Positions 23,983-63,272 of a DNA stretch of 64,000 bases are shown in pieces. The position numbers and the translations under genes are program-made. This DNA comes from Mesodorylaimus sp. YZB2_4 (Eukaryota; Nematoda; Enoplea; Dorylaimida; Dorylaimidae), in contig JASANH010000554.1 in NCBI GenBank assembly GCA_030248295.1, forward strand, positions 124,001-188,000, read 5' to 3'. The notes under the pieces are model-generated. The model searched no databases and was not told the origin of the DNA. It saw only the letters and a program-made list of their open reading frames with translations. Each line of letters begins with the position of its first letter. Within the stretch, counting starts at the first letter, position 1.

Positions 23983-25878
23983 TCATGGAATGTAACTTTT
24001 CCTTATGAACAGGCTCCGTCGCCGACGCTTCCGTTTTTTACACAGAAAGCAAGGCGATAAAATGCTTGGTCCATCCGAATCGGACAAAATACTCGGCGAT
24101 AATAAACCTGGACTTAAAATGGTAGCTGTCAATGTGCTAGGTGATAAAATAGCTGGGCTTAGGACAAATGGACTGAGAATTACTGGACTACCAGCGGCTG
24201 GGCTTAGAATGACCGGGCTGAGCACGAATGGAGTTAGCACAACGGGCGACAGAACTGAAGGTGACAAAATAGAAGGGCTTAGAACAAATGGATTCAATAT
24301 GTCCGGTGATAAAACGAAGGGATTTAAAATAAATGGCGTCAGAACTGCAGGCGATAAGACATATGGAGCCAATAGATAGGGTGACAAGATATAGGGGCTT
24401 AAAATTAACGGACCCAATATAACCGCTGAGAATAAGGAAGGGCTCAAAATTTGAGGCTGCTCTACGTAAGCTTGCCCAATGCTGGGGCCAATGTATGGGG
24501 CTAAAATTGCTGGAGGAGCCTGTCTAGTTTTTCTTTCGGCTCTTTCCTCGTAGTGATCAGAGCTACCGTAGGCGATATCAGTGATTGTTTCTTTTATGAT
24601 ACGTCGTCTCTCTAGCGGATCCGTAGTCAAGTACTCTGTGATCACTGGGTCGGCATTCTCTAATTCGGCACTGTACACAAATCGCAACTGATCAGCATTC
24701 AAGAATGAAAATCCCTGATGATTCATCTCGTCAATCTGATCCATGCTAACTGAAGAATACAGTTGGCCAGCAACTGAGCTACCAACTGGGACAAGATAGG
24801 ATTCAGAGCTTTGTGTCGTTGAGGTTCTTTGAGACAATAATCTTAAAAAATCAGAGGCTCCTGTGGCCTCTCCAATAAGTCGATACCACGATAGTTGCTC
24901 CTGCAGGGGAATGGATTTTAGAAAGCTCGACAGCGCGGCCACGCTGTTTGGCCCATCGAAGAAACTGAACAGGTCAGGCGAAAGAACGTTTTCCGATTCT
25001 TTGTCAGCAAAAAGTGGGAAAATTCGAGGTGACAAAAATCGCAGCGGTTTTCCTTCATTTTGTCTTTTTCGTCGCCGAATGCCAGCAGCTTGATCATTTA
25101 ATCGATATAACGGGGATTGAAATAGATTTTGAATATAATCTGCCACATTTATAGGAAAAGACGATCCCGATAAAGGTGGAATTTCATCTGAGAACCACGG
25201 CCCTATTTGAGATTTGATTCCTTGAAGAAAATATGTTAATAAATCCGCGACGCCTGCGGTCGATTGGCTGACCTGAGTATCGTAAGATTTTATGGCCGAC
25301 ATAAAATCGTGCTCAATCCGAATCGGCTCAGAAACTGATCGTATTTCACGTTGTTGGTTACTTTGCCAAAAATCCCCGTTTTCGATCTCGAAACCTCGCA
25401 GTAGACACGACGCATAAAATGTGCTCTCGGTAGAATTCTTGATGCATTCACGAATCGGTTCAAACTCGTGGCTTGGTAGAGTTCGTTCAAATTTTGTAGC
25501 TACTGCTGCCAATAATGAAATCTGGGCGCGTTCGCGTAATTCCAATGCGTGCTGAAGATGTGATGATTTAAATCCAGTTACTAAAAAGAGGTGCAAATGG
25601 TGTCTGTTTGCATTAAGAAATCCATGTATCGATTGATGGGGTGAATGACCATTCAACTATTTGATGGCTACTTGAAACATGCATTTAGCAGACTAATGTA
25701 GATACATTCAACAAAGAGGATAAACATTCGTGCTTCTGTGAGCGAAATAGTTCTTTGAGAACTATTTATGTCGCAATAGGAATATTACTAGTGCATCGAA
25801 AAAGCATCGCACTTTACTCTGGACAAAAATCTTACCGGTATTCCAAACCACTAGCAAAACTATGAATTCAGTTTTCAT
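23983..25878 (-). CDS. MLT-10-like moulting-cycle protein, 546 aa
   Basis: Two exons: 25878-25836 encodes M-K-T-E-F-I-V-L-L-V-V-W-N-T, a signal peptide, with donor G|GTAAG; 25580-23983 follows an acceptor CTCTTTTTAG and the phases match (G + TA = Val). The middle region is Cys-poor and helical. The last about 150 residues are a tandem run of L-S-P-x-x-L/I units (I-L-S-P-Y-I-L-S-P-Y-L-L-A-P-Y), then a basic tail with K-R-K-R-R-R-R. This is the hallmark of the nematode 'moulting cycle' family (C. elegans MLT-10 and paralogues), secreted by the epidermis and needed for cuticle renewal. A poly-basic motif may be a proprotein cleavage site. The longer reading from 25656 without the signal exon would lack an export signal, so I prefer the spliced start. 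Confidence 0.85.
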
Positions 25879-44734: not shown

Positions 44735-45108
44735 ATGAGGATGAAAACTCTGATTGCCTGGTTTCCCCTAGTGTTTTCTGTATCCTTTCCCTTTTTGCCA
44801 TCTCCGTCGTCAGCTTTCGGAAGGTACTCTCCAAGCTGGGACAGTTTGGACAAGCGTCCCCTACCCTCTTGGTATGACAAGGAAAAATTTGGTATCTTCA
44901 TGCATTGGGGGGCATACGCTGTGCCCGGTCTGCGTGACGCCTGGTTCTGGTGGTACTGGCAAGGCGACAGTCCGACGCCTGATGTGGTTACTTTCATGCG
45001 AAAGAATTATCCCCCAGGATTCACGTATGCTGAATTCGCCACGATGTTTACAGCAGAATTATTCGATCCTGATGAATTCGCAAAAATTGTCAAGAAATCT
45101 GGGGCAAA
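44735..45108 (+). CDS. alternative first exon 1a of fucosidase gene A (variant active-site exon)
   Basis: This exon encodes a signal peptide (about residues 1-28) and the GH29 N-terminal segment to G-A-K, ending in phase 2 at AA|GTAAGC. There is no exon 2 between here and exon 1b at 46838, so it can only splice to the shared exon 2 at 47666, giving 507 residues with no frame change. H-W-G (fucose-binding His) is kept, but the canonical S-E-W-F-W-W is D-A-W-F-W-W: the Glu is replaced by Ala, and the preceding loop reads A-V-P-G-L-R. Its upstream sequence is unlike the other first exons, implying a separate promoter. It could instead be an orphan from a deleted gene, but the frame, signal peptide and donor are all intact. 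Confidence 0.8.
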
Positions 45109-45544
45109 GTAAGCAATTATATTTCGAGTAAGCGGCGTAGACAGCAAAAACTACAGTTTTTAAGCGCAAAGATATTTACTATTATATATTGCAATCTACA
45201 TAGTGGAGTACAGCCAGACCAGCGTACAATACTCTACTCGTACTGTATTTGTCTCGCAACCAGATGTGTCTGTGTAGCCACTGTCTACCCATGATCAGCG
45301 CCATCTGGCGGCCTGTCAGATAAGCCCCTCCAGCATTGACCACATTGTCCGCTGCGGAGCTTACAATGCAGGATTGTCTGGTAATGGCGGTCGCACGAAA
45401 ACGCGAGGGAGGGGGCGTTAGCATCCTTGTTGTATCTACATATCTTGTGCCGCGAATTTTTTATCATGGTCAATCACATACTGAGCATGGATTTGCATGG
45501 CAACGAATAGGATCGAAAAACAACGAGCACTAATTTCTGCGCTT

Positions 45545-46411
45545 TCATGCAAGCATATCATTGCAGATAGAAACGTCAAGTGTTAGTGTATGTATATCCT
45601 TTGAACCGACAATGAAGGGGCTCAAACTGAAACGGGGGAGTTTGTCAGGAGACATTATACTCAAACAGACTGTTAAGTCTCCCAGCGCAAACTGTCTTTC
45701 TGGTACGTCGCGAAGCGATTTCCAGTCCAGTTCACCACTGTTCACCAGCAACAGCAGCCAGTGATCTAATCTTCTACAGTATAAATAATTGTGTGCTTGG
45801 ACGTAAGCTTCCTTTTCGGGTCAAAATTCAAAATTTTGCGTTTTCGTATATTTTTCTACGAAAAAAGATCGACTTCCCTGATTGTTTACTCGTAATAAAT
45901 ATTTTTATGTTCTGCAGCTGGGCGATTGACACTAGCCTACTGTAAGTACAGCGTTTTGGGCATAGTTTGATAAAGGGCAAAGCAAAGCAATGCAATGCAC
46001 TGTAATTTGTTTTTCATCACAGGATTTTTTAATCCAAGTTTTTTGGATCTATCTGCAACCTAGCGATATTTGCTGGGGAGCTAGTATATGCACCGAACAT
46101 TGCTAGTAATATGATCTGTCAACCAGAGGTGGTGATAGGTCGCGTTACAAGCTAACAACCTCATCGTAAGAAACCGTGTTAAATCATAACTTGCGTTAAA
46201 ATGTCTGCTGCGACTAATAAGCTTTTACAATAGCTTTAACACCGCTATACTTGCGCAGAAAAACAACGAAGACATATTGGCTACTTCATGTTCTCATTTC
46301 ATCATATCATTTGAGATAGAAACGTTAAGTGTTGGTGTATATCAGAATATCTTTTGAACCGACAACACATGGATTCATATTGAAACAGGAGGATTCACCA
46401 GCGACATGCAT
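45545..46411. repeat. direct duplication (about 115 bp) in intron 1 of fucosidase gene A
   Basis: 45545-45660 and 46296-46411 match: CATATCATTNNAGATAGAAA CGT ... AAGTGTTNGTGTAT ... ATCTTTTGAACCGACAA ... GAAAC. They lie between exons 1a and 1b and are 750 bases apart. They may be the trace of a local duplication that also made the two first exons. Confidence 0.65.
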
Positions 46412-46837
46412 GGCCGCAAGGGATTGCTAAATTAAAAATAAGGGCCCACGCACCAGTACATGAGTTTTAGCACTCTCTAGCGCATACTTTCACAGCCCAC
46501 CACTTTTCGAACCAGGCACTAAGAAAAAATGATAAGATTTTTTTATCAAAGTAGCATTTGCTGAACCCCTGCGCCATTCGCCATCCCAGAAGCAATCTAT
46601 CAAGGCATAAGCTCTTTGAAAGTCAGTTGCTGCATTCGCTCGCGCAGCGCGTAGCTCACCCTTCTACACCAGGCTGCCAAACACGCCCTTGTTTATCACC
46701 CAGCTGAGCCGCCCTCGTATCATCAATCCGCTTTCCAAAACGCATAAATTTTGGCCAGGCTGACTAGACTCGATCGCCAGCCAAGTCACCAGCCATTGTG
46801 CTTTCTTCTCGTCCCGCAGAGCACACCACAAGCAACC

Positions 46838-49800
46838 ATGTCTTTTCGCCTTCTTGCATTGGTCATCCTGCTATCTCAATCTTGCTCCATCAAGTCGCAG
46901 CCTAAATATCGCCCTGATTGGAGTTCTCTGGACACTCGACCATTGCCTTTGTGGTACGACGATGCAAAATTTGGTGTCTTTATGCACTGGGGCTTGTACT
47001 CGGTGCCATCATATGGCAGTGAATGGTTTTGGTGGAACTGGCAAGGCACATCACCCAATCCAGCCGTAGTACTATTTATGGCTAAAAATTATAAGCCAGG
47101 ATTCAAATATGCCGATTTTGGATCAATGTTTACGGCTGAGTTATTCAGTGAAACGGAATTCGCTAGCATCATTAAAAAAGCTGGTGCAAAGTAGGCAGTC
47201 CTGCTGTACAGCATGAAGATTAGGAGAGGCTTGTTCCCCGGCCGAAGATTTTTCTAGCTTTCCAAGCGAGCTTTTCTGGGTGTGAGCGGATGCACTATGC
47301 TGAATAAGTCAGGCTTCCTAAAATTACGTGAGAAAATACTTTCGCCAAGGCATAATCAGGATATAGGAACAATCAGCTACACATTTAACAGCATTAGGTG
47401 TAGGATCAGGATATTTTGACTCTTATCGACGGGAAGAGTCCGCAGATTCAAAAACAGATTCATGGTCAATGCAGTTAAATCAGAAGACACAGAAAATTTA
47501 TTTTAATATTATGCTCCGAAAAGTTCAAGAAAACTGAAATATCTGTAAAAAAGTGTTCCCAATCCCATTCGAATCTTTCTGTTCAGCCGCAACAGGATTG
47601 TTCGCGATGTAAAAACTAGATGTAGCTCCAGACAATTCCTGTTCTGATCTGATCACTCCTTTTAGATATTTCGTCTTGACGAGCAAGCACCACGAGGGGT
47701 ACACCATGTGGCCAAGCAATTACTCTTGGAACTGGAACAGTTTTGATGTTGGCCCTCATCGTGACCTTGTGGGTAAGAATGATATATTTCTGTCGCAGAC
47801 GTCTTCAGAACTGCAAATTATCAAAGAGGCTAGCTAAGGAGGTATCTAAAACTATGTATTGATAATGCTAAAAAAGTGAAGGTAACTGGGTACGATTTTC
47901 CATCCCAGTATCACAGTGCTTGCCGCTAAATCAAATTTAAAAAAGCTCGGAAACAAACCTTTCGAAAGCTGGGTCCTGCTACACAGGAGACGACTGTAAA
48001 TTACATACTTGTACGCTTACGGGTAAATGCGCGATGCGGTGTGTTCTGACTGCATTCTCATACTGTAAATGCACGGGGCAGAAAAAGGGGGCGATGGTGC
48101 ACCTCGCACTGCACTCACCCCACTTTCTCCTCTATTTCTGTCCCAAGATAAGAAACAGCAAAGAAAGTCTTGCAGATAGCTTGTCTTTACGTAGCTCTAT
48201 TTGTTTGTCAGGTGATCTGTCGAAGTCTATGCGAGCCCAGGGAGTACGATTCGGTTTATATTATTCTCTGTTCGCCTGGTTCCATCCGCTTTATCAGAAA
48301 GATAAGGCCAATCTGTTCAAGAGTCAAGAGTATGTCAGGGTGAGTGGGACCAGAGTGCCGTAGCGGCAGGTGCTCAAATAGTGCAAGCTACGTTACAGTC
48401 ACATTCGACAGAGCATCACCCACCGGACCATGCAGAAGTGATGCATGTGCGTAAGCGATAAGAAATGCAAGGCGATAAGATTTTTCAGAATGGATACGCA
48501 AACAGTGTGATTCATGTCCTTGGAGCTGAATGACATATCTGATACAAAATGCATGAATTTCACTGGCTCACAGCGAGCATGTCTGAGAGCCCGCCACCAT
48601 TTTATGCGACACTACGTGCGCGTTAACAAAATTTACAGCACGCTGATAGGTCGCGCATTGTAAGCAGACGTGACGCAGGCAACGTAATTCCGTCTCACTG
48701 ATAATACCACAAGACTGTAACAGCAATGTTTCCATAAAGCTGGGCGCTTCCAATTGCGCAAGTTTATTCAGACAAAACTACTGTATAGCACATAAAGAAT
48801 ATGATGGAGGCATGGAAGGAAACAAGAGATACACCTGCCCCAAAAGCACACATACTGAACGTGGCAGCACCATCTTAGATATGTAATATTTCAAAAATTT
48901 TCAGGATGTAGTTATCCCCCAAATGCGCGAAATTATCAACACTTATCGCCCCGAAGTGTTGTGGAATGATGGCGATTGGGAAGCGTCCTACCAATACTGG
49001 AACTCTACTGAATTGATAGCTTGGCTGTACAATGACAGGTGAGTCAACACTAGTTGCACTTCGTGCTTTGACAACTACAGGAGAAAAGCAAATAGGCTAA
49101 AAGGTTTACTTGCTTTATCAACTCAAGCAATAAAAGCTCTGCAGACTTTTCCAGAAAAATTTTTAAAGTTTCTACCATGCATTGATTGGACAGGGCCATG
49201 TACTCCGCTGTGCTTGCCTTCATTGTTCTTGCCATGAGGATAAAGAAACACAGTTTCCGACGCACAGCGTCCTAAAAGGCCGTATGGTACTCTAACTACG
49301 TCTTTGCCTGTAGCTACTTCAGGCGAAATGTAATCACCGTAGCGCCTGCACTGCTAGAAATCCAGCAGACAAATTATTAAAATTTCCACAAATGTGAAGT
49401 ACCAACTGATTTCCAAAAGCAGCAAGAGCGGAAAAAGATGAAGAGCAACAAGAGCTTGCCCTCTTACAATTGCAAACTTCAAAATAGAAAAAACGATGGG
49501 GACTCCTCTCTTCCATCAAAGACCCGCTGGCCGCCCTCACGCCTATCGATACGGTCTCCCTCTCAGCTTACCCGAGCCCTGCCATTTCCAGTGTTGCTGG
49601 TGGGTTCTGGGAACGGCCAGCCGCACTGGCAGTGGGCATGGCAGGATTCGAGGAGTGCAATGTCCTCATCGTCGATACCGCTCAGGGAAGGATGCGGGAT
49701 CTCGATGCGATCTAACGTCACTGGCGAAGGTGTTTCGGGTGTAGTCCACTTTACACAGAGGTCACTGCAAGTATGAGCGTCGCTATTGCGCCGTCAGGAA

Positions 49801-52023
49801 CCCGTCTTACCGAGACTGGTGCTGTGAGGAACAGTCCACCACCGACCAACTTAAAGTTTCAGCTTTAGTATTTATTTGCGAGCTTTTTCGTGATAAAGAC
49901 TCGGCGCCACCGGGAGTCGAACCCAGGGCATTCAGATCGCAAGTCGAAAATCATACAACTCGACCTTATGGGTCATAAAAATATAGTTAATATCACCGGG
50001 GGGTTTAAATGATTTCAAGGTTGCGAAATGATGCATGCGGGTTTTATCTCACGTCTCAACCTTTCCTTTAGTTTTTTGCCACCCACTCCTTGGCCCATGC
50101 ACGCTCTGGGGAAGGGCACCATTTGCAGCTATACCACACACCCTTCAACAAGTCTTTCACTAAACTGTGCCAGAATCTTTAAAAAATCAAAGAAGTCATA
50201 AGAACATGTACAGAAACGATGAGTGACTTCTCATGATCACTCTGCGATTTCTAGCCCAGTCAAAGACACCATTGTGACAAACGATCGTTGGGGCGTTGGT
50301 GCATTGTGCCAACACGGCGATTTTTTTACCTGCTCCGATAAATATAACCCAGGTAAAAAGCTTTATAATTTAATAAAATGCACTTAAACTCTATCATTAA
50401 TGGGACAGAGGTGTTTTTTCGTTGTTATGGCAAAACCAGTCCACCCCCAAACAGAAAAACAATGCTCTGATAAAAAAGTTTAGGGCTTACATGCTGTACT
50501 TCAATAAAAATGTTTATTGACTTGTTGCAGGGGTATTACAGAAACACAAATGGGAGAACTGCATGACAATCGATCGTAATTCGTGGGGATTCCGACGCGA
50601 CGCCCGCTACGCTGACTTTTTAACAATTCAGGAATTAATTGGAACTCTGGTTACCACAATCAGGTAAGAGCGCTCTGTGCCTGACCGCTCATTATCAGAG
50701 AAACATGGTTTAAAAGTTGGCTGTCAGCAGTTAGAGGGGAGTAATGCGGAAAGTATTGGGAATATACCGCACTGATTCTTCTGTAACATTGTTTTCAGAG
50801 AACCCATTGTCTCGATTCACTTCCGCTTTTTATGAGTGATAAGTGATGGCAGACTTGTTTCCTCAAAGCTTATAGTTGTGGTCAGACTTCATCCCTAGCC
50901 CCGGAAGAGCAAGAATCCGTATTTCTGCTTAGCCGTGCATTTCTCCCTTGCCTAATACGGCACTCAAGAGGCTTGGGAAGACGTCAGTTCTCAGGTCTTG
51001 ACTGTTGTGCATCATCATTACCTGCCAAATAACAAACAGAAAATTACAGGTAACTTTAACGCAGATTCATGCACTCATTCTGAAGTGACTATGTCAACAT
51101 AAATCACAAATGAGAGAAAAACTGCAATACCATAGAGCCCAAACACAAAAAGTTTAACTTACGCCATCATCTTGCCTTGTTCAGTTAAAAGACACAATAA
51201 CTGATTGTGTCGGCCAATACTTTTTAGGGCCCAAAAAATGTTTATATTTATCCATTGCAGTTGTGGTGGCAATCTGCTCATGAACGTTGGCCCAACCCAT
51301 TATGGAAAAATCACTCCTATCTTCGAAGAACGCCTGACTCAAATGGGTGAATGGCTGCAAGTGAATGGCGAAGCTGTCTACGAGTCCAAACCATGGATAT
51401 ATCAAAATGACACCCTGACACCAAATATATGGTAAGGCTTAGAGACCAACACATAACACTTCTTTTAAGTGTACCTACTCGTAAGATATGCAAACCAAAA
51501 GATGCGTTTTTATTAGTATAAAAATAAGGCAACCACCATGGATACATGTTTGAAGGGCATGAGCTCTTTTGCTGGTGCACCATATTGGCGCAACATAGGC
51601 TTTGGAGTTATGTCCCACAGAATGTCATTCGAAGTGCTTTGCAGGTTCACCTCTAAATTACGCGCCGCTGACGGCATTCCATCGCGTCGTATTTACAATC
51701 CTCAAAAGAAGGACGACACAGTAGTTTATGCCTTTGTCCTTGAATGGCCCGAAGATAATCATTTGAAACTAGCATCGTGCAAGCCGACTGCTCAAACCAA
51801 GGTGTCCCTACTGGGCTACAACGGCACCCTGACCTACAAGCCATTGAAGCCGAGTGGTCTGACTGTGGATTTCAGCGGCATTCAGTGGACCCGTCTGCCC
51901 AACCTGTGGGCGTGGACACTGAAGTTGGAATATTTGGAAACGGATTCGCGCGTCCCATATATGGAAGATGCGCGTATTCCAAGACAAGCTCCTCAATCTC
52001 CAATTCCAGCTGGCGCTATTTAG
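46838..52023 (+). CDS. alpha-L-fucosidase (GH29), tandem gene A, canonical form, 500 aa
   Basis: Eight exons: 46838-47190 (1b), 47666-47772, 48212-48339, 48905-49038, 50255-50352, 50531-50663, 51261-51431, 51645-52023. A secreted or lysosomal enzyme that removes alpha-L-fucose from glycans with retention. Signal peptide [16 protein letters not shown], then [23 protein letters not shown] (sugar-binding His pair), the nucleophile Asp in [26 protein letters not shown] and L-M-N-V-G-P, in the order of metazoan FUCA1. The last exon is the C-terminal beta domain. L-W-N-D replaces the L-W-S-D of genes B and C. In-frame Met 87 bases upstream of 46838 is not used, because it would bury the signal peptide. 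Confidence 0.95.
49903..49974 (-). repeat. tRNA-like (SINE-type) sequence in fucosidase gene A intron 4
   Basis: On the minus strand, GACCCATAAGGTCGAG (D-arm-like), a central stem, and CCTGGGTTCGACTCCCGGTG GCGCC with a perfect B-box are spaced as in a tRNA. The 5' end does not pair with the GGCGCC 3' end, so it is probably a tRNA-derived SINE or pseudo-tRNA rather than a working tRNA. Confidence 0.45.
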
Positions 52024-53843
52024 ACGACAGAATAATGCACAAGAGGTGTGATCATATATGCGAGTGGACCAGGACGCTATAGGCCACGAATAATTATAAT
52101 TATGGGTGACGTAACGTTTCTTCCTTGTACGCTTTGCATGCAATAGCGGAGTAATAATACGGAAAATACCGCAAATATACTATGCTGATTCTTCTGGAAT
52201 ATTCTTTTCAGATAAGGTACTGTTTTGAATCACTTGCGTTTTTCGCCAGTATACATTAGTTACTGTTTGCGTTTGCAACCCACCACGGACGTACACCATG
52301 CTAAAGGAAAGGGGGAACCTGTGTCGCTGGCTAGTCCCCCAGCAAAAGGGAATTCTCAAAATGTCTATTAAGAGGCACGGTAATTGCCTGCTTAGCCCAG
52401 GAATTTATGCGCAGTAGGCCACGGTGACCGAGCATAACGCGGCAACCTTCTTTGTACGAAATTTGCGTCAACTCGGGAGGGACTAGACGACAAAGTTTTT
52501 CTATCTATTCTGAATTTTTCAACCCAAATATGGGTGCGAAAAAGTACTAGTATTATTTAAAAAATCTGCTCTCAGACAACGAAAAGGTTAGTCCAGCCAC
52601 CCTACTCTAACCAAATGCAAGGCAAACGAGGTTGGCTGGGCGGTTAACTGGGTAGGTGCTAGGCATGCAGTACTCGTGCCCTGTTACGGCAAATGCAGCC
52701 TACTGCAGCAAGTCCCCACTGTTTCCCAAGTAAGTCCAAGGTAGCAGAAGGCAATCGTATTCCAAAACTATAAACTTCCAAACTTACTCCAAAATACGAA
52801 TAAGTATATTCATGTGGGTACTAGCCTTCGGTGAAAAACAGAAAGAATAAAATCCCACAGGGAATCGACCCCACGACTTCACGATGCACCAAATACATCA
52901 CAGAGGCATGCGTTATGAGCGTAGGAGTACGATTGTGAGCCTCGCCCTGAACGCAACATGAACCTAGATATATCATGTCTAGATAAGTATACCCACTCAA
53001 GCGTGTGCCGTTGAGGGAGCCCAGCCAACCTCGTCTCGCCTTGCATTTGGTTAGAGTAGGGTGGCTGGGCTAACCATTTTGTTGTCTGATAACAGATTTT
53101 TTAGAAATAGAATTTGCTCCTGCAAGATGTATTGTGAAACACTGGCGACCCCGTCAACCAATACAAGTTGAAGTTCATTTGCTTAGTTCTAAAAAGGCAC
53201 ATACTGACAATGAGTAGCGAGCCCGCGAAGATGCAATCGGTACCTCACACGGTTAGATCCTGAATACGTGTACGACCTGGCAAACTGGTATAGGAAACGG
53301 CAAGATCTCACCTGATACCATAGTGAGTTATAAGTTCTCTAAGATCCCAAAGGGAACCATAAGACAAAAATAGGTAGCCAAGTGAGCAGGGTAACTATGC
53401 AAAGTGCTGGTCATGAAGATGGACTCAACTTAGGTTTATATCAGCGCTCATTTCAAATTCTGTCAGCGCTATTCTAAAAACAGCTTTCAGATCAACTGCC
53501 GAATTCTTTTTAACATTTTGTCTGGACGTCTACAGAGCAATATTCACGTTTGTGTGCTCGTCTAGCGCATCCATGCTCTTCATTACTTTCTGTGTGCCCA
53601 GTTGATCAAAGTTAGCCAAATTCTCGCATCGGCTGTCCTATGGCTTTAGTTTTCGTTACCAATTTATTTTCCTTCAAAACAGCCCGATACGGTTCCAGCA
53701 GCCTTGGGATACAAGGGCTCTCATGGATACACTGTCTCCAAGCGTCGCCATGAGACAGTGCATCCGCTGGGAACCAGACGAACAATGTTTTTAGCAAAAC
53801 CATCTTCGGAGTGTTCAACAGACAACACTCGTATGAATCCCCA
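52024..53843. other. intergenic between fucosidase genes A and B, holds a TIR element
   Basis: Apart from the 52556-53107 element no gene is supported. Confidence 0.5.
52556..53107. mobile_element. MITE-like element with about 85-bp terminal inverted repeats
   Basis: TTTAAAAAATCTGCTCTCAG ACAAC...GTTAGTCCAGCCACCCTACT CTAACCAAATGCAAGGC...GAGGTTGGCTGGGC (52556-52641) is the inverse of 53019-53107 with few differences. No transposase frame. On the minus strand the interior (52854-52930) carries a tRNA-like B-box (GGGGTCGATTCCC), so a SINE may have inserted, or the element itself has a tRNA-like interior. Confidence 0.85.
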
Positions 53844-54022: not shown

Positions 54023-57000
54023 ATGTTTTTTTACCTTCTCACCTTGATCATCGTATTTTTCCAATCATGCCTAGTCCAATCGCAGCCAAAATATCGACCT
54101 GATTGGAGTTCTCTGGACACTCGTCCATTGCCGTTATGGTATGACAACGAGAAATTCGGTATCTTCATGCATTGGGGTGCATACGCTGTGCCCGGTCTGC
54201 GCGACGCCTGGTTCTGGTGGTACTGGCAAGGCGACAGTCCAATGGCTGATGTGGTTTCTTTCATGAAAAAGAATTATCCCCCAGGATTCACGTATGCTGA
54301 ATTTGCAAAAGATTTTACAGCAGAATTATTCGATCCTGATGAATTCGCAAGAATTGTCAAAAAATCTGGAGCAAAGTAAGCAATTGTATATTGTGCATGG
54401 TAGGATCGTGAATTGCATACGTAATTAAACCTATATTTTATTTGCAACACTGCCGTTCATACGAGTAGCATTAATCGTAGCGCCAGGAGTTCGCAAATTC
54501 AGTGTCAACCTTTCGCGCTCGTAGTGTTTGCTGGTACAGTGGCGAGATGCAGCCTCTAAAACCGGCTGAGCTAACTAAACTAGACTACCAGCCGAGTGAT
54601 GCATCCGTGCTTTCCTCAAAATGCACAACACGGAGCACCATGTTTGCCTGCCTCACCTTCTTTATCCTAGTTTCTTCTTCTGTGTCTTTTGCCCCAATCG
54701 CAACTTAAAAATCTCTCTGATTGGGACTCACTAAACACGCGCCCAACATTTTTTGGTGTCTTTTTGGCTTCTGCTTTCTTGTCAGTCAATGCCATCGTTC
54801 TATTGCGATGTTCTTGTTGGGAAAGGCAGGGCCCAATTCAGCTTTAGGATGTCTAAATAATTATTAGCTTTGATTCAAATATGCTGTCTTTCTCAATCCT
54901 TTTGGCTAAATCACACTATGAAGGGGAATTCGCAAATACAGCATGAAAAGCCTGGTGCAAAGTAGACAGCCGTGCTGTTCGAGTATCATATGTCCCGTGT
55001 GTGCATGCTCATGTTCTATCGCAGCACCAAATGCAGTTTTGCACACTCGGATGCATTTCACACAGAATATTTAACCCAGCTTGGTCTCGAACACAAGTTG
55101 GAAAATGCGCATCCAGTGTGACAGGCAGCACACCGTAAGCAAAGTCCTAGTACGATGGTTCTGATAGCGCAGTGACTCTCTGATCGCCTCTATGGGCCTT
55201 TCCCGAACCTACGAAAATCTATGGCTGATGTTAAAAGTTTCCATTTTAAGGCTATTCCCAAGAAACGTAAAACTGCTGCACCTTGTGAATAGAAGACTGA
55301 TCGCGAGAAGTTAAAAAATTATTTCGAAAAGAGCTTAAAATTCAAAACATTTCTAATTATTATTTCGTTGGTCACACAGTGTTTAGATTCAGAGAAAATT
55401 CTAGAAACGTAGTATAGTTTGTGGTCTCCTGTGCATGTGCTGCCGCGACGGAGCGCGATGGATTCAAGGCTCACATTACAGCCCAGGAGAAGCATCGTCG
55501 ATCTGTGACTTTGCGATGTGATTCTTTTTCCCTTCTTTGCCTAGTTCGCTTCCCTGTGGCTCATTCTTCGTTTTTGTCTCTGACCAGAGTGGTCGTCTGC
55601 TTATCTTTGTCCTTTAAGACAGTGTGACGAAGCTGCTTTATACTCAGTATCCCATCTTCAGCCAACCTGAGCAGTCAGTTCACTTATTCGCTCTGCATCT
55701 CTACGCTTCCATTACGTCTCTCTCGCTACAGTAGATGTCCTCAAATGTTCCTGATTTATATTGTACAGCCCTTTTTGTGTGGAGCTGATAGATAGCAGTG
55801 AAAAGAAAGTAATCCAACCGTTAAGAAAATATGTAGCGCTAGTTCAACATTTAGTTCTATGTATTATTTAAATTGATCAGTCTGTTCTTTCTAGATACTT
55901 CGTCCTGACAAGCAAGCACCACGAGGGGTACACCATGTGGCCAAGCAATTACTCATGGAACTGGAACAGCTTGGACATTGGTCCTCATCGTGACTTAGTG
56001 GGTAAGGGTGGCACTCACAATTAGTTGCAGAGGCCTATCTTATTTTTGGTCACCAGGCGATCTGTCGAAGTCTATGCGAGCCCAGGGCGTACGTTTCGGC
56101 TTGTATTATTCGTTGTACGCATGGTTCCATCCTCTCTATCAGAAAGATAAGGCCAATTCGTTCAGGAGTCAAGAGTATGTCAAGGTGAGTTAATGTAGAG
56201 GAATGCTATGGCTATTGTGCACTGAACAGGATATACTGTACAGTGGCTAGGGAAGAGCGTATCATTTTCGAATGTCTGCAGGAAATCTACATCGGATTGC
56301 GATGATAGCCATGCGACGCAGATATAGTGACAGAATAATGCTTTTGAATAAGAGGAATATTTAATATTTTAGGATACAGTAATTCCTCAAATGCGCGAAA
56401 TCATCAACACATATCATCCCGAAGTGTTGTGGAGCGATGGAGATTGGGAAGCGTCCTACCAATACTGGAACTCAACTGAGTTCATAGCTTGGCTCTACAA
56501 CGACAGGTGGGTCAAAAATATTGCGCTTTATACACCTATGTCCTGCTGCGCCCCTATAATCCGTGCGTAAACACCTCCAGGAGGGTGGTCTAGAGAAGCA
56601 ATAATTTATGAAGCTCAGGGAGGGTCTCTTATTGATCAATCCATCTTTCAGCCCAGTCAAAGACACCGTCGTAACAAATGATCGTTGGGGCATTGGCGCA
56701 TTGTGCCATCACGGCGATTTCTTCACTTGCGATGATAGATATAACCCAGGTGAGATGGACAGTTCACGCGGCACCATCCGATTTCGCTAACTGAATCCTA
56801 TTTCTGTTGGGTAACACATTCGTATTGGCTCTGGGGGACGATCGATTCCGCATCCGCAGGGACGGGGGTACAGAGTCAATCGTCCTGCAGGGGAGCCTGT
56901 TGGTTAATCTCTCGACTACCTAGAATGTTGATTACATCTTTTTATCAGGAGCCATAACAGCAAAAGATTTATGTGCAATTTTGACTCATGTGACCAGCCC

Positions 57001-58129
57001 ACCCAGGCGGCGGGAGATACCAGAGACAAATCACCAATAAAAACTCTGGCTGGACAAAGGCAAGGTTCTCGACAGTACCTGCCGCTGAAAAAAGCCAGAG
57101 TGATACCGCTGTACACTGTATTTTTGCAGGGCTATTGCAAAAACACAAATGGGAGAACTGTATGACCATCGATCGCAAGTCGTGGGGATTCCGACGCGAT
57201 GCTACTTATGCCGACATTTTAACAATTCAGGAATTGATTGAAACTCTGGTCATTACTATCAGGTAAGCGAGTGATGTGCAAGACAGTTGGCCAATAAGAG
57301 TACCAAGCATGAATGAAACTGGTCGTTCCTGCCGATACTTCATAGGATCATACAGTATTTACCCATTTCAGTTGTGGTGGCAATCTGCTCATGAACGTTG
57401 GCCCAACCCAATATGGAAAAATCACACCAATCTTTGAAGAACGGCTGACTCAAATGGGTGAATGGCTGAAAGTGAATGGCGAAGCTGTCTACGAGTCCAA
57501 ACCATGGATATATCAAAATGACACTCTGACACGAAATGTCTGGTAAGTAGTACTGCACGCAGACCGGAGCTTTACAAAGATTTTTGAAATTCACAGTCAG
57601 TGACACAACGAAGTCGGTTCACACGCAAAGTGGGTGATACAACAATCCACCTGAAGAGGTGTTTCAAAATTTGACGATTAACTGAATAATCCAGTTATCA
57701 AGTCTTTGAGATAATTTTCGTAATCCAAACACTTTTCTGGACCATGACGAGAGTCATTGCAGGTTCACCTCAAAACTACGATCGTCAAATTCTCGTCATG
57801 TTTACAATTATCAAAAGAAGGACGACACAGTGGTTTATGCCTTTGTCCTCGAATGGCCTGAAGACAACCAGCTGAAACTGGCTTCGTGCAAGCCGACTAT
57901 TCAGACCAAGGTGTCGCTACTGGGCTACAACGGCACCCTGACCTACAAACCTTTGAAGCCGAGTGGTCTGACTGTGGATTTCAGTGGTATCCAGTGGACC
58001 CGTCTGCCTAACCTGTGGGCGTGGACATTGAAATTGGAATATCTGGAGTCGGATTCACGCATCCCGTATATGGTAGAGGCTAATGCAACGAAAATACCAA
58101 TGTCTCTGGTTCCTGGTTTTGCTATGTAG
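54023..58129 (+). CDS. alpha-L-fucosidase (GH29), tandem gene B, variant first exon, 496 aa
   Basis: Eight exons: 54023-54375, 55895-56001, 56057-56184, 56373-56506, 56652-56749, 57130-57262, 57372-57542, 57763-58129. Exons 2-7 have exactly the lengths of genes A and C. The intact first exon is type 'a': it keeps H-W-G-A-Y but has D-A-W-F-W-W, so the Glu of the canonical S-E-W-F-W-W is Ala. Its front half (signal peptide through [11 protein letters not shown]) is type 'b'. H-H-E-G-Y-T-M-W and the nucleophile in L-W-S-D-G-D-W-E are present. The canonical first exon is wrecked (54640-54965), so gene B can make only the variant. Whether it is an active glycosidase, an altered one or a fucose-binding protein is open. 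AATAAA lies near 58310. Confidence 0.92.
54640..54965 (+). pseudogene. decayed alternative first exon 1b of fucosidase gene B
   Basis: An ATG and a signal-peptide-like start ([11 protein letters not shown]) run into a stop after CCAATCGCAACT. One base over, the frame gives [10 protein letters not shown], the family's D-W-S-S-L-D-T-R-P. The H-W-G and W-F-W-W parts are deleted or scrambled. The end is recognisable: TTTGATTCAAATATGC..., GAATTCGCAAATA, GCCTGGTGCAAAGTAGACAG CC matches gene A exon 1b and its donor. It is therefore a dead type 'b' exon between exon 1a and exon 2. Confidence 0.85.
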
Positions 58130-58993
58130 AAGGCAGTATGACCACACAGTATAAAGTATGTACATCTTAAGGGGTACCGTCAAGGTCATGAAAATTAAGG
58201 AGGTGGCGTAAAATACTTTCTTGCCGATAAGCTGGTTTGGAGAAGAGGTGTATAATATTTTTCCGAATGAGATCTATGTAGGCGCATTTTGGGGTCATAT
58301 GCAGTGACAAATAAACACGGACTTACATCTCCGTGTTTATTAAGCCGGTATGTTATACATACCAGTGTGTTAACAGAAACGTGATTGCAGCAAGTGTTAT
58401 GTGTTTTAAAGTGAATATATATTTGTTGTAGTGAGTCCATGGCTTCTGTATTTTGACTCATCTCTGTAAAATATTATTGAATTATGATGATTTGGCTTCT
58501 TGGAGTTAAATGAACTGCTACCATCAATCTGAGGTTGACAGCTAGAGCCAGTGCCTTTATCAAACATTTGAGCATGAAAACGCATTTAGCTGCTGGCACA
58601 AGAAAATATTGTCAAGTTTTTTGAAAATACTTGCGCTAGTATTCATAAAGCTGAACTGCTTGGAGAAAATCTTCCATACAGTCCATTATTACTTCGTCCA
58701 TCGCAGTTCACCATGTTTCGAAGGCAATCCTGCGACAAGTTATTCGCACTTGACGACATGCGATATCATGCAGTGGCAGAAATCGATGGTACAGTGGAAA
58801 AACACAGCACACAATCGCTGGTCCGCAATATTCAGGAGTGCAAAGTACGATTCGTTATTTTTCAACAACACAACGCGTGAATTTCGCTCCAGCGCCTACG
58901 ATCTGATGTGGTTGCGAAAGCCATTAGTCTAAACATCGCCGACGCGCTAACCAGACAAACACAGCAACTAGGCAACTAGAAACTCCGCGCCCG
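58130..58993. other. intergenic between fucosidase genes B and C
   Basis: 3' flank of gene B with AATAAA near 58310, then sequence with no supported gene. I searched for a type 'a' first exon and found none. Confidence 0.5.
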
Positions 58994-59178
58994 GCCGTCC
59001 TTGGCGCTGTGCACATGATCGATTATAACAACACCTTGAGATATCGAGCGCACAGGGAAAATTCCCAGCGACACGTGACCATAGACGCCAGTTGAGTGAA
59101 AACATGGGCAGACAAGTCATCTTGCGTCTATGCTAGTCGTGTTGGTTTCTTTCCCACTCAAAATACAAACAGGCAACC
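58994..59178 (+). promoter_or_regulatory. conserved 5' flank of fucosidase gene C
   Basis: Counterpart of 53844-54022, about as long, with the same order of blocks ending in GACAAGTCATCTTGCG and CAGGCAACC before the ATG at 59179. The pyrimidine-rich acceptor-like tract is weaker here (TTTCTTTCCCACTC). Confidence 0.55.
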
Positions 59179-62100
59179 ATGTTTCGCCTTCTCTCCTTGT
59201 TTATCCTCCTTCCTCACTCGTACTCGCAATCGCAGCCCAAGTATCGCCCTGATTGGAGTTCTCTGGACACTCGACCATCGCCATTTTGGTACGACGATGC
59301 AAAGTTTGGTGTCTTTATGCACTGGGGTGTCTACTCGGTGCCATCATTCTATAGCGAATGGTTTTGGTGGGAATGGCAAGGCAAATCACCCAACTCAGCC
59401 GTAGTGGAAGTTATGGCTAAAAACTATAAGCCAGGATTCAAATATGCTGATTTTGGATCAATGTTCACGGCTGACTTATTCAGTGAAACGGAATTCGCTA
59501 GCATTATAAAAAAAGCTGGTGCAAAGTAAGCAGGTTTTTGACAAGGTCGAAAATGGACAGGCTGCGCAACCAAGATTTCTGTGGGCGCCTCAGGGTGCTC
59601 TTAGGATTAGCGTTCTCAAGTTTGCCGTGTGCTTAAAAGATTCAAGCTTCCTGAAATAAAAAGTCCTAAGCTCTAGGCATTTGCCATATAAAGAGTCAGA
59701 TAATTCTGTTTCTAAGACACTTTTGGCATGCCTTCACACGAGCAATCAGGAATTTGCAAACCATTTGCGCAGTCGCACACTCTAGTGGAGTCCATGCACT
59801 GAACCAAAACGTGAACTTTTCTGTTTCACTCCTGGACTGGACGCCTTTAACAACTAGTGCTGTAATTAGAGGCAAAAATGAGTATTGCAAGCGTAAAATC
59901 TCTTTGAAATTAATCCGATCAGCTGAAATAAGCTAATTGCGAAACAAACTTGTGGTTGTTGCAACTAGCAGTGTGTATTTTGTTTTGAAATGCAACTGAA
60001 AATGGATGCTTCTAATTTGCGTGCTGTATATTTGTGTCCGTTTTTTTCACAAATACCTGATGAGCAAAATGCAAAAAGCGTGATAAGTCCCGCTCATGTA
60101 ATCCGTCTGTTATGTCGTAGGTATTTCGTCTTGACGAGCAAGCACCACGAGGGGTTCACCATGTGGCCAAGCAATTACTCTTGCAACTGGAACAGTTGGG
60201 ACGTCGGCCCTCATCGTGACATAGTGGGTAAGAGTAACACGACAATTATCTGCAGAGGCCGACCTAATTTTTGGTTTCTGCTCGCCAGGCGATCTGTCTA
60301 AGGCTATTCGAGACCAAGGAGTCCGCTTCGGCTTATATTATTCATTGTACGAATGGTTCCATCCTCTCTATCTGAAAGATAAGGCCAATTTGTTCATGAG
60401 CCAAGAGTATGTCAGGGTGAGTAACGGGACAGAGTGAAACACGACTTGACTGACGCCTGCGCTGAAAGCATGAAATATGCAGCCTATCAGTAGCAAAGGA
60501 TCATTTGGAAACGCGCATAACAATGTTAGTCGCGAACCAGCCAGGCGAAGTGATACGCAAAGAGGTATACGACTCCACGGTTATCGCTATGGTAGCATAT
60601 CCAAGGGGTTACGAAGTGTGGGCCTACTTTATGAATGCTTGCAGTAACGTCAGAGTACAGAGTAGCAAAATACCATTTTCAAAGTCCGAATCTTTGAGGA
60701 TTTAACTTTTGCCCTTTTGATTTTTCTCCCCTTTTGCCCTTTTAGTGCCGCAGGACTTTTGCTAGGCCTGACCGAGTGCAGTATGAAACGTAATGGTTGC
60801 CCTGTTTCTGTGTTCCACCCATTTCATGTCTGTGCAGAGTTTCTCTTTCCCCATTGTGCATCAGGCCATCTGTGGTAGGTGCGAGATGCTGTCATGAACA
60901 CCTGACACTTGATCTGGAACCTATGCCGGCAAAAAGACTCACATAAGATGAAGGAATCACTGGTTGTTATCGTGCTTTTCTAAATGGCATCTCGTCGCAC
61001 CCTCATCAATAGTTTACCCTACTGTAAAGTACCTACCTCCACCACACTATCTGGCGGCTAACGCTTGTCTAGAGTGATTCATAAATACTCCTACGGTACG
61101 TCTGAAGTTTTATAGGACCTAGTCATTCCCCAATTGCGAGAAGTCGTCAGCACCTACCACCCCGAAGTGTTGTGGAGCGATGGAGATTGGGAAGCGTCCT
61201 ACCAATACTGGAACTCTACTGAATTCATAGCTTGGCTGTACAATGACAGGTGAGTCAACTGCACTTGACACGCACGTGACGATAGGAGTTTCAGTGGCAC
61301 TTGATTTCTCGCAAAATCAGTGTGGGCGGTCGTGAGAAGCAGTAGTTTTATGAAGGTCACGAAGTGTCTTCTCAATTGACCACTGCACCTTTCAGCCCAG
61401 TCAAAGACACCATTGTGACCAATGATCGCTGGGGTGTTGGTGCGTTGTGCCAACACGGCGATTTCTTTACGTGCAGCGACAGATACAACCCAGGTATATA
61501 TCTGACTCTTTATAATTGCGCCGTCCTGTCTAAATGCTGTCCGTAGCGTAAACTCCATTGACAATACTCTTCGTGCCAGCCATGCGCTGCCTCTCTTTAA
61601 AGGATCGGTTTGATAGGTTTTTAAAATAAGCTGACTCACTGCTGGCATGCCGTATGTTGGCTCAAAAAATAAGGGAAGAGCTTGAATAGCAGAAAAAGGC
61701 AAGCCTGAGAACATCATTTACATGTCATCGCTCTTCATTTTCAGGAGTTTTAAAAAAGCACAAATGGGAGAACTGTATGACAATAGATCGCAATTCGTGG
61801 GGATTCCGACGCGAGGCTACTTATGCCGACATTTTAACAATTCAGGAATTGATTGAAACTCTGGTCATTACTATCAGGTAAGCGAGCGTGGTCAGCATCC
61901 AACAAAGGATTGGTCAACAGCTTTTTTGTCGCAGTGGGTCTCCATCTCCCTCTTTCCTGACTTACCTTCGATCACACCCGTCTGCAGAAGAAGAATAATT
62001 GAAATGATAAAATTGCCTGTATTTCTCGTAAGATCGTGTTCTCTGAAACCACACATACAGAATGAGCAAATACGCAGGTTGACGCAAACATGGTTATGCA

Positions 62101-63272
62101 TACTATATATTGAGCTACGCTACCACCTTGGACTGTTACCAAATAAGAATAATGACAGAAAGTGGTTGTGTCCACCAATACTTTTCTACTGTCCAAAAAT
62201 GTTCATCTTCATTCATTGCAGTTGTGGCGGCAACCTGCTCATGAACGTTGGCCCGACCCATTATGGAAAAATCACACCAATCTTTGAAGAACGGCTGACT
62301 CAAATGGGTGAATGGCTGAAAGTGAATGGCGAAGCTGTCTACGAGTCCAAACCATGGATATATCAAAATGACACCCTGACACCAAATATATGGTAAGCAG
62401 CACTGCATGCAGACCACTGACGGCTGAAGGTGGGTGCATTGTACGCCAAGTCAATTTGACCCGTCTCACGATCAATGGCATGCTGTCTAGTTACTCATGG
62501 GATATTCTGTGCACAAAACTGTAGCACGCTACCCTCACCTCCAGAATGTGTTTTCATGAGTCAGAGTGATTGTGCAGGCTGGGCCGCGCGTTGGGGCGGA
62601 AGTCCAGTGGAAGCCTTGTTTTCCCAACAGAACAAAACGGCCCGAATTTTTTCTCTTCTCTCTTCTTTTCTAATAATCCCCCTGCTCGGACTAAGTCTTT
62701 ACTCGAACAGAACTTTACACATGGTGGACACCTCTCTCATGCTATGCTCACTCGGCGCCTAGCCGGTTTTAAGAAGTCACAAGGGAAAAATTATGTTTTG
62801 TGCCTCATGATTTCTGTTTGAAATCTTTTTTCTAATCTTTATTTCTGGTCATACTGGCCATTGCAGGTTCACCTCTAAATTACGCACTGCTGACGATATT
62901 CCCCCGCGTCGTATTTACAATCTTCAAAAGAAGGACGACACAGTGGTTTATGCCTTTGTCCTTGAATGGCCCGAAGATAACCATCTGAAATTAGCTTCTT
63001 GCAATCCGACTGATCAAACCAAGGTGTCCATGCTGGGGTATAGCGGCACTCTGACTTACAAACCATTGAAGCCGAGTGGTATGACCGTAGATCTCAGTGG
63101 AATTCAGTGGACCCGTCTGCCTAACCTGTGGGCGTGGACACTGAAATTGGAATATTTGGAGTCGGATTCACGCATCCCGTATATGGAAGACGCGAGCATT
63201 CCAATAGATAAGCCACAATTTCCAAATGCGGCTTGTACTTTTTCAGAAGATGGGACATGCGAGTCAGTATGA
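59179..63272 (+). CDS. alpha-L-fucosidase (GH29), tandem gene C, canonical form, 507 aa
   Basis: Eight exons: 59179-59525, 60121-60227, 60289-60416, 61116-61249, 61396-61493, 61745-61877, 62222-62392, 62867-63272. The first exon is type 'b' with [17 protein letters not shown], so all substrate-binding positions I can name are canonical; H-H-E-G-F-T-M-W and L-W-S-D-G-D-W-E follow. Signal peptide [11 protein letters not shown]. Exon 3 has diverged most (A-I-R-D-Q-G, Y-E-W-F, F-M-S-Q). The C-terminus is longer than in genes A and B and ends in an extra Cys-containing tail ([10 protein letters not shown]). There is no type 'a' exon upstream. Confidence 0.95.

Follow-up and report, generated by a model that had tools for sequence, protein, structure and literature searches.

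A nematode alpha-L-fucosidase gene with two putative alternative first exons that differ at a sugar-binding position

In gene clusters of the UGT1 type, the selected first exon is spliced to a shared exon 2, and any first exons in between are left out. A similar arrangement is proposed for a glycoside hydrolase family 29 (GH29) alpha-L-fucosidase gene, gene 1, of the nematode Mesodorylaimus sp. YZB2_4. Gene 1 lies on the plus strand of the analyzed window, a stretch of 64,000 nucleotides (nt) (contig C61, positions 124001-188000) from a 145 Mb assembly of 1067 contigs; coordinates below are positions in this window. A report on the vertebrate clusters (PMC1885805) calls the Ugt1, Gcnt2 and Ugt2a organizations vertebrate-specific, with little gene conversion, and places the acceptor-binding domain of UGT1 in the variable part. 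Gene 1 resembles UGT1 and GCNT2, as described there, in that paralogous first exons feed one constant exon set. However, gene 1 is a nematode glycoside hydrolase with two first exons (heads) only, part of the catalytic pocket lies in the head, and the gene cluster shows conversion or crossing-over. No case of alternative first exons in a fucosidase or another glycosidase was recognizable among the listed titles and abstract openings of the open-access literature, which represent it in part. The favored explanation, to which we give a probability of about 0.6, is that gene 1 is a single GH29 alpha-L-fucosidase gene that can begin with either of two first exons and that the switch between them most likely alters the accepted sugar or fucose decoration.

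Exon 1a (type A, 44735..45108, 374 nt) and exon 1b (type B, 46838..47190, 353 nt) each have a start codon, an N-terminus judged signal-like by eye and a phase 2 donor (GTAAGC and GTAGGC, respectively), and both end two bases into a Lys codon. They are 65.6% identical across 96 aligned residues. Exon 1a alone matches the Alpha_L_fucos domain PF01120 with an E value of 5.1e-33 and is therefore not a chance frame. The shared body consists of exon 2 (47666..47772), whose GT-AG junction continues the frame from either head, exon 3 (48212..48339), exon 4 (48905..49038, with the nucleophile D218), exon 5 (50255..50352, with the acid/base D269), exon 6 (50531..50663), exon 7 (51261..51431) and exon 8 (51645..52023), which contains the stop codon and the Fucosidase_C domain. 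These exons are all on the plus strand and have AG acceptors and GT donors. The joined frames run without a stop for 507 amino acids from 1a and 500 from 1b, and both forms score above the curated cut-offs for PF01120 (434.9 bits for the 1a form and 436.4 for the 1b form) and for Fucosidase_C, PF16757 (75.7 and 75.8 bits). The coordinates and donor phase of the two first exons and the lengths of the joined frames agree with the initial annotation of this DNA.

Gene 1 thus has the anatomy of a variable-first-exon gene, with paralogous first exons that share a donor phase and precede a single constant set of exons. That annotation had also held that a single set of exons 2-8 follows both heads. 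A tblastn search of 45110-46815 with all four proteins found no convincing exon 2-8 sequence between 1a and 1b (best E 0.79). Two further complete tandem genes downstream had gone unmentioned. The window contains three GH29 genes in tandem on its plus strand, and an unlinked fourth gene lies on contig C309. The regions upstream of 1a and 1b have no blastn similarity to each other. A pyrimidine-rich stretch ending in CAG (46801..46819, plus strand, read directly) lies 18 nt before the 1b ATG, and a similar stretch precedes gene 2 exon 1. It is possibly the acceptor of a 5' untranslated region intron or of a spliced leader, in which case a single upstream promoter could serve both forms of gene 1. 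The SL1 leader had no match in the genome, either with the Rfam SL1 model, whose control was also unmatched, or with the SL1 sequence at up to 2 mismatches; other spliced leaders may still be compatible with this result. Between 1a and 1b, a diverged non-coding stretch is present in two copies (45545-45636 and 46294-46389) that are 77-83% identical and spaced by about 750 nt, a sign of an old duplication.

The two heads differ at a position that probably contacts the sugar. By chain count, residues H34, E66, W67, H128, H129, Y171, W222, D224 and R254 of Thermotoga maritima TM0306 (1hl8, 1odu), which we take to be its fucose contacts, fall on family positions; this bacterial enzyme differs in a longer loop before E66 and in having Asp177 at position 175. 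In alignments that included first 61 and then all 80 bacterial relatives, Glu62 in the 1b form falls in one column with Thermotoga Glu66 and human Glu70. These relatives are the best 80 of 590 confirmed (at least 595 stretches matched in the alignment-based scan) and represent nearest relatives rather than a family-wide sample; no relative was confirmed when bacterial genomes were scanned with a single sequence. The scan patterns reach position 55, which biases the counts for H50 and S55, and E62 and E175 lie outside them. The Glu66 column contains Glu in 80/80 bacterial relatives, in 1b, in gene 3 and in the C309 gene, and Ala in 1a and gene 2. HMMER pairwise and four-sequence MAFFT alignments differ, setting Glu62 opposite the Ala of Thermotoga DAWFF.

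Biochemical evidence on this position comes from the enzyme AlfC of L. casei (6o18), a smaller bacterial protein. A study of AlfC (PMC7718225) reports that E39 and W40 coordinate fucose O3, that the E39A mutant has a kcat/KM of 0.0046 per s per mM compared with 2.0 for the unmutated enzyme (a loss of about 430-fold) and a KM of 14 mM compared with 0.70 mM, and that the sequence equivalent of E39 has been implicated in catalysis for a Sulfolobus and a spider enzyme. We equate the Glu62 position with AlfC E39 on the start of the match, which places AlfC H18 on H50 if ungapped, and on the E-W pair, making E39A a yardstick for the Glu to Ala replacement. The proposal that the heads differ at a fucose-contacting residue is upheld by these alignments. 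The O3-binding Glu of the E-W pair, which is not a formal GH29 criterion, is absent from 1a and gene 2, so the 1a form is classed as a GH29 homologue rather than a proven fucosidase. Gene 2, a complete gene, carries the variant loop (GLRDAW) as well; the 1a and gene 2 loops are identical across a 28-residue stretch.

A second replacement lies in the shared body. Position 175, in exon 3, is Glu in 77/80 bacterial relatives, Asp in two and Asn in one. Gene 3, the C309 gene and human FUCA1 (E182) likewise have Glu here, and Thermotoga has Asp (D177); genes 1 and 2 both have Ala in their bodies. The 1b form had been taken for a canonical fucosidase, but it shares a body in which Ala175 stands against Glu or Asp in 79/80 relatives, gene 3, C309 and FUCA1, so 1b plus body is not a plain canonical enzyme either. 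Among the 72 columns with one residue in at least 95% of the 80 relatives, gene 3 departs at 12, compared with 15 for the 1a form and 15 for gene 2; the extra departures common to the latter two and missing from gene 3 are at positions 55, 62 and 175. At positions 86 and 112 genes 1-3 all depart, and the A-type heads have a common residue absent from gene 3. Furthermore, in exons 2-4, genes 1 and 2 pair at 12/19 two-against-one amino-acid sites versus 8/29 synonymous sites (Fisher 0.019). The simplest reading would be that the gene 1 body was shaped together with the A-type head.

The catalytic residues are retained. The nucleophile is D218 in genes 1-3 and C309 and Asp in 80/80 bacterial relatives, and the animal-type acid/base Asp is D269 in genes 1-3 and C309, aligned with D276 of human FUCA1. 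FUCA1 (7pls, 7pm4) is the best solved relative by sequence (E 2.3e-156) and belongs to the same family, and D225 and D276, as given in its structural description (PMC9548408), align with D218 and D269; it differs in its SEWFWW head and in having Glu182 where gene 1 has Ala175. Contacts H50, W63, H127 and W221 are kept in the 1a form and gene 2. A dead GH29 protein would be recognized by loss of the nucleophile or the acid/base, and both Asp residues are present in all three bodies. Together with the retained contacts, this favors a changed sugar preference over a dead binder, and with modest confidence the A-type forms are predicted to have altered sugar preference.

The two types of head appear to predate the gene duplications, because synonymous sites between 1a and 1b are saturated (37.5 differences at 46.3 sites), compared with pairwise synonymous divergence (dS) of 0.48-0.56 among the three bodies. 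Exon 1a and the A-type part of gene 2 exon 1 (79 codons) differ by a dS of 0.277 and a nonsynonymous divergence (dN) of 0.056, for a dN/dS of 0.20, the same ratio as 1b and gene 3 over that stretch. In simulations under a clock, a neutrally evolving 1a matched the data in 3/200 runs with its partner at 0.15, 3/200 at 0.30 and 9/200 at 0.05; a neutral 1b did so in 2/200 (115 codons, partner gene 3 at 0.15). Constraint on exon 1a is supported by these comparisons but not proven.

In the favored explanation, each head would encode a signal peptide and the beginning of the (beta/alpha)8 barrel, with the His that binds O4 and the O3 loop, and the constant exons would contribute the nucleophile D218, the acid/base D269 and the C-terminal domain. 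Transcripts that begin at 1a or farther upstream would join 45108 to 47666, skipping 1b and removing 45109-47665 as a 2.56 kb intron; others would use 1b. The 1b form would keep Glu62, and the 1a form would have a different loop with Ala at that position. Both would retain the catalytic pair, such that the switch would change the accepted sugar or fucose decoration and not enzyme status. We infer splicing of 1a to the gene 1 body in vivo, as well as selection of 1a by start-site choice and an effect on specificity. Nematodes have unusual fucose decorations, which would be plausible substrates for an altered fucosidase. A more elaborate version, tentative and somewhat doubtful, is a UGT1-like glycosidase switch in which start-site choice swaps the O3-reading part, Ala175 reflects co-evolution of the constant exons with the variant head, the emptied O3 pocket takes an O3-substituted or different sugar, and recombination put the variant half into gene 2. 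Should 1a indeed be joined to the body of gene 1, a single glycosidase gene would encode two enzymes with different sugar-reading portions of the pocket. This would be a natural experiment in the determinants of GH29 specificity and would extend the variable-first-exon design beyond its vertebrate examples, and the shared Ala175 leads to a testable prediction on which active-site positions change together.

The neighboring genes indicate that heads recombine. Genes 2 and 3 are complete tandem copies (54023-58129 and 59179-63272, plus strand), and a search with the 1a peptide found at least five first exons in the genome. In the pocket-forming part, 1a and gene 2 exon 1 are type A, and 1b, gene 3 and C309 are type B. 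Gene 2 exon 1 (54023..54375) is a chimera with a B-type 5' part and an A-type 3' part and a breakpoint between 54135 and 54142. At its 107 informative sites, B is matched in 40/46 to the left and A in 56/61 to the right, a split reached by 0/2000 shuffles. It is the only intact first exon found for gene 2, and its active-site part is A-type. A dead B-type first exon in gene 2 intron 1 (54570..54978, plus strand) has frameshifts and deletions and is 61-64% identical at the nt level to 1b and to exon 1 of gene 3. Gene 2 therefore repeats the gene 1 order of A-type pocket head, B head (here dead) and body; this order is either older than the duplication or rebuilt through recombination. Exons 2-8 of gene 2 are at 55895-56001, 56057-56184, 56373-56506, 56652-56749, 57130-57262, 57372-57542 and 57763-58129. 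Gene 3 has a B-type exon 1 with SEWFWW (59179..59525) and exons 2-8 at 60121-60227, 60289-60416, 61116-61249, 61396-61493, 61745-61877, 62222-62392 and 62867-63272, all likewise on the plus strand. No A-type first-exon remnant was found between genes 2 and 3 (58130-59170). A weak match to the body C-terminus upstream of gene 3 (58973-59092; E 0.006, 27.5% over 40) was taken as chance.

Several observations weigh against two functional forms of gene 1. The exon 2-4 partition was picked after the counts were known; pairing leans the opposite way in exons 5-7 (2/17 amino-acid versus 12/32 synonymous sites, Fisher 0.096) and is weak in exon 8 (9/23 versus 7/32). The conservation of position 55 is biased by its place inside the pattern used to collect relatives. 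A five-sequence codon model found almost no change on the 1a branch and is uninformative (likelihood ratio test statistic 0.02), and the 1a neutrality test used 79 codons, a clock and fixed parameters, including a kappa of 1.5 versus 1.08 estimated. Gene conversion between 1a and gene 2 would also shrink their distance. Moreover, in simulations with substitutions alone (5000 at each of three distances), 10-27% of dead 1a copies retained both the ATG and an open frame, so that openness of 1a by itself is weak evidence. Finally, the DNA upstream of 1a and its first approximately 29 residues match no other copy here, leaving its promoter and signal peptide without comparative support.

Some of these points fit an alternative in which 1a is an orphan head, left over from an A-type gene that recently lost its body, unused by gene 1 and perhaps serving as a gene-conversion donor, as to gene 2. 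The recombinant gene 2 exon 1 with its A-type sequence and the dead first exon next door, which shows that heads do die here, would both be expected, as would upstream DNA that 1a does not have in common with the B-type exons and a frame whose chance survival is not rare. However, no convincing body remnant lies between 1a and 1b, the frame, donor and active-site stretch of 1a are all intact, 1a bears signs of constraint since its split from gene 2, and Ala175 is common to the gene 1 body and the A-headed gene 2. We regard an orphan head as unlikely. Loss of the body could instead be an artefact of an assembly that collapsed or dropped an A-type gene body, with 1a heading its own complete gene. 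Similar tandem genes are prone to collapse, and the genome is in 1067 contigs, but the window has no N, the interval from 1a to 1b holds no body exon that could be found, the 1a peptide search still recovered at least five first exons, and body copies that differ at dS of about 0.5 are poor candidates for collapse. An artefact of this kind would be very surprising.

A different alternative accepts the use of both heads but makes the 1a form a catalytically dead fucose-binding lectin or decoy, as the initial annotation had suggested beside altered specificity. The lost residue is the Glu found in 80/80 bacterial relatives, a second near-invariant acid (175) is also lost, and AlfC E39A is approximately 430-fold weaker (PMC7718225). 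However, the same study reports measurable activity left in E39A, and D218, D269, H50, W63 and H127 are all kept in the 1a form; the identity of the 1a and gene 2 loops fits retuning as well as loss. Of the two outcomes suggested, altered specificity fits better, and the dead form appears distinctly improbable.

Several further features were noted. The C309 fucosidase (L009, reverse strand) lacks the residue aligned to Trp221 just past the nucleophile, a position that is W in 80/80 bacterial relatives, and tblastn gives it four pieces versus eight exons in the tandem genes. Between genes 1 and 2, 52558-53103 has 66-nt inverted repeat arms, 92% complementary and 414 nt apart, and looks like a small terminal-inverted-repeat element. 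Beyond the cluster, the Pfam scan covered 10/167 open reading frames (ORFs) of at least 75 amino acids. An ORF at 23986-25656 on the minus strand encodes 557 residues with a Moulting_cycle (PF04870) match and a long ILSPxxLSP-like repeat tract, and a receptor ORF in the window matches 7tm_1 and Srw above their cut-offs and Srx below its own; these families are characteristic of nematodes. Elsewhere in the genome, a COX1 sequence (L091, C73:253316-254668) has no stop within its match when read with the invertebrate mitochondrial code, and this contig also carries a partial copy in inverted orientation at a distance of about 1 kb. COX1 fragments are also present on other contigs, and these copies are either nuclear mitochondrial copies or parts of an unusual mitochondrial genome.

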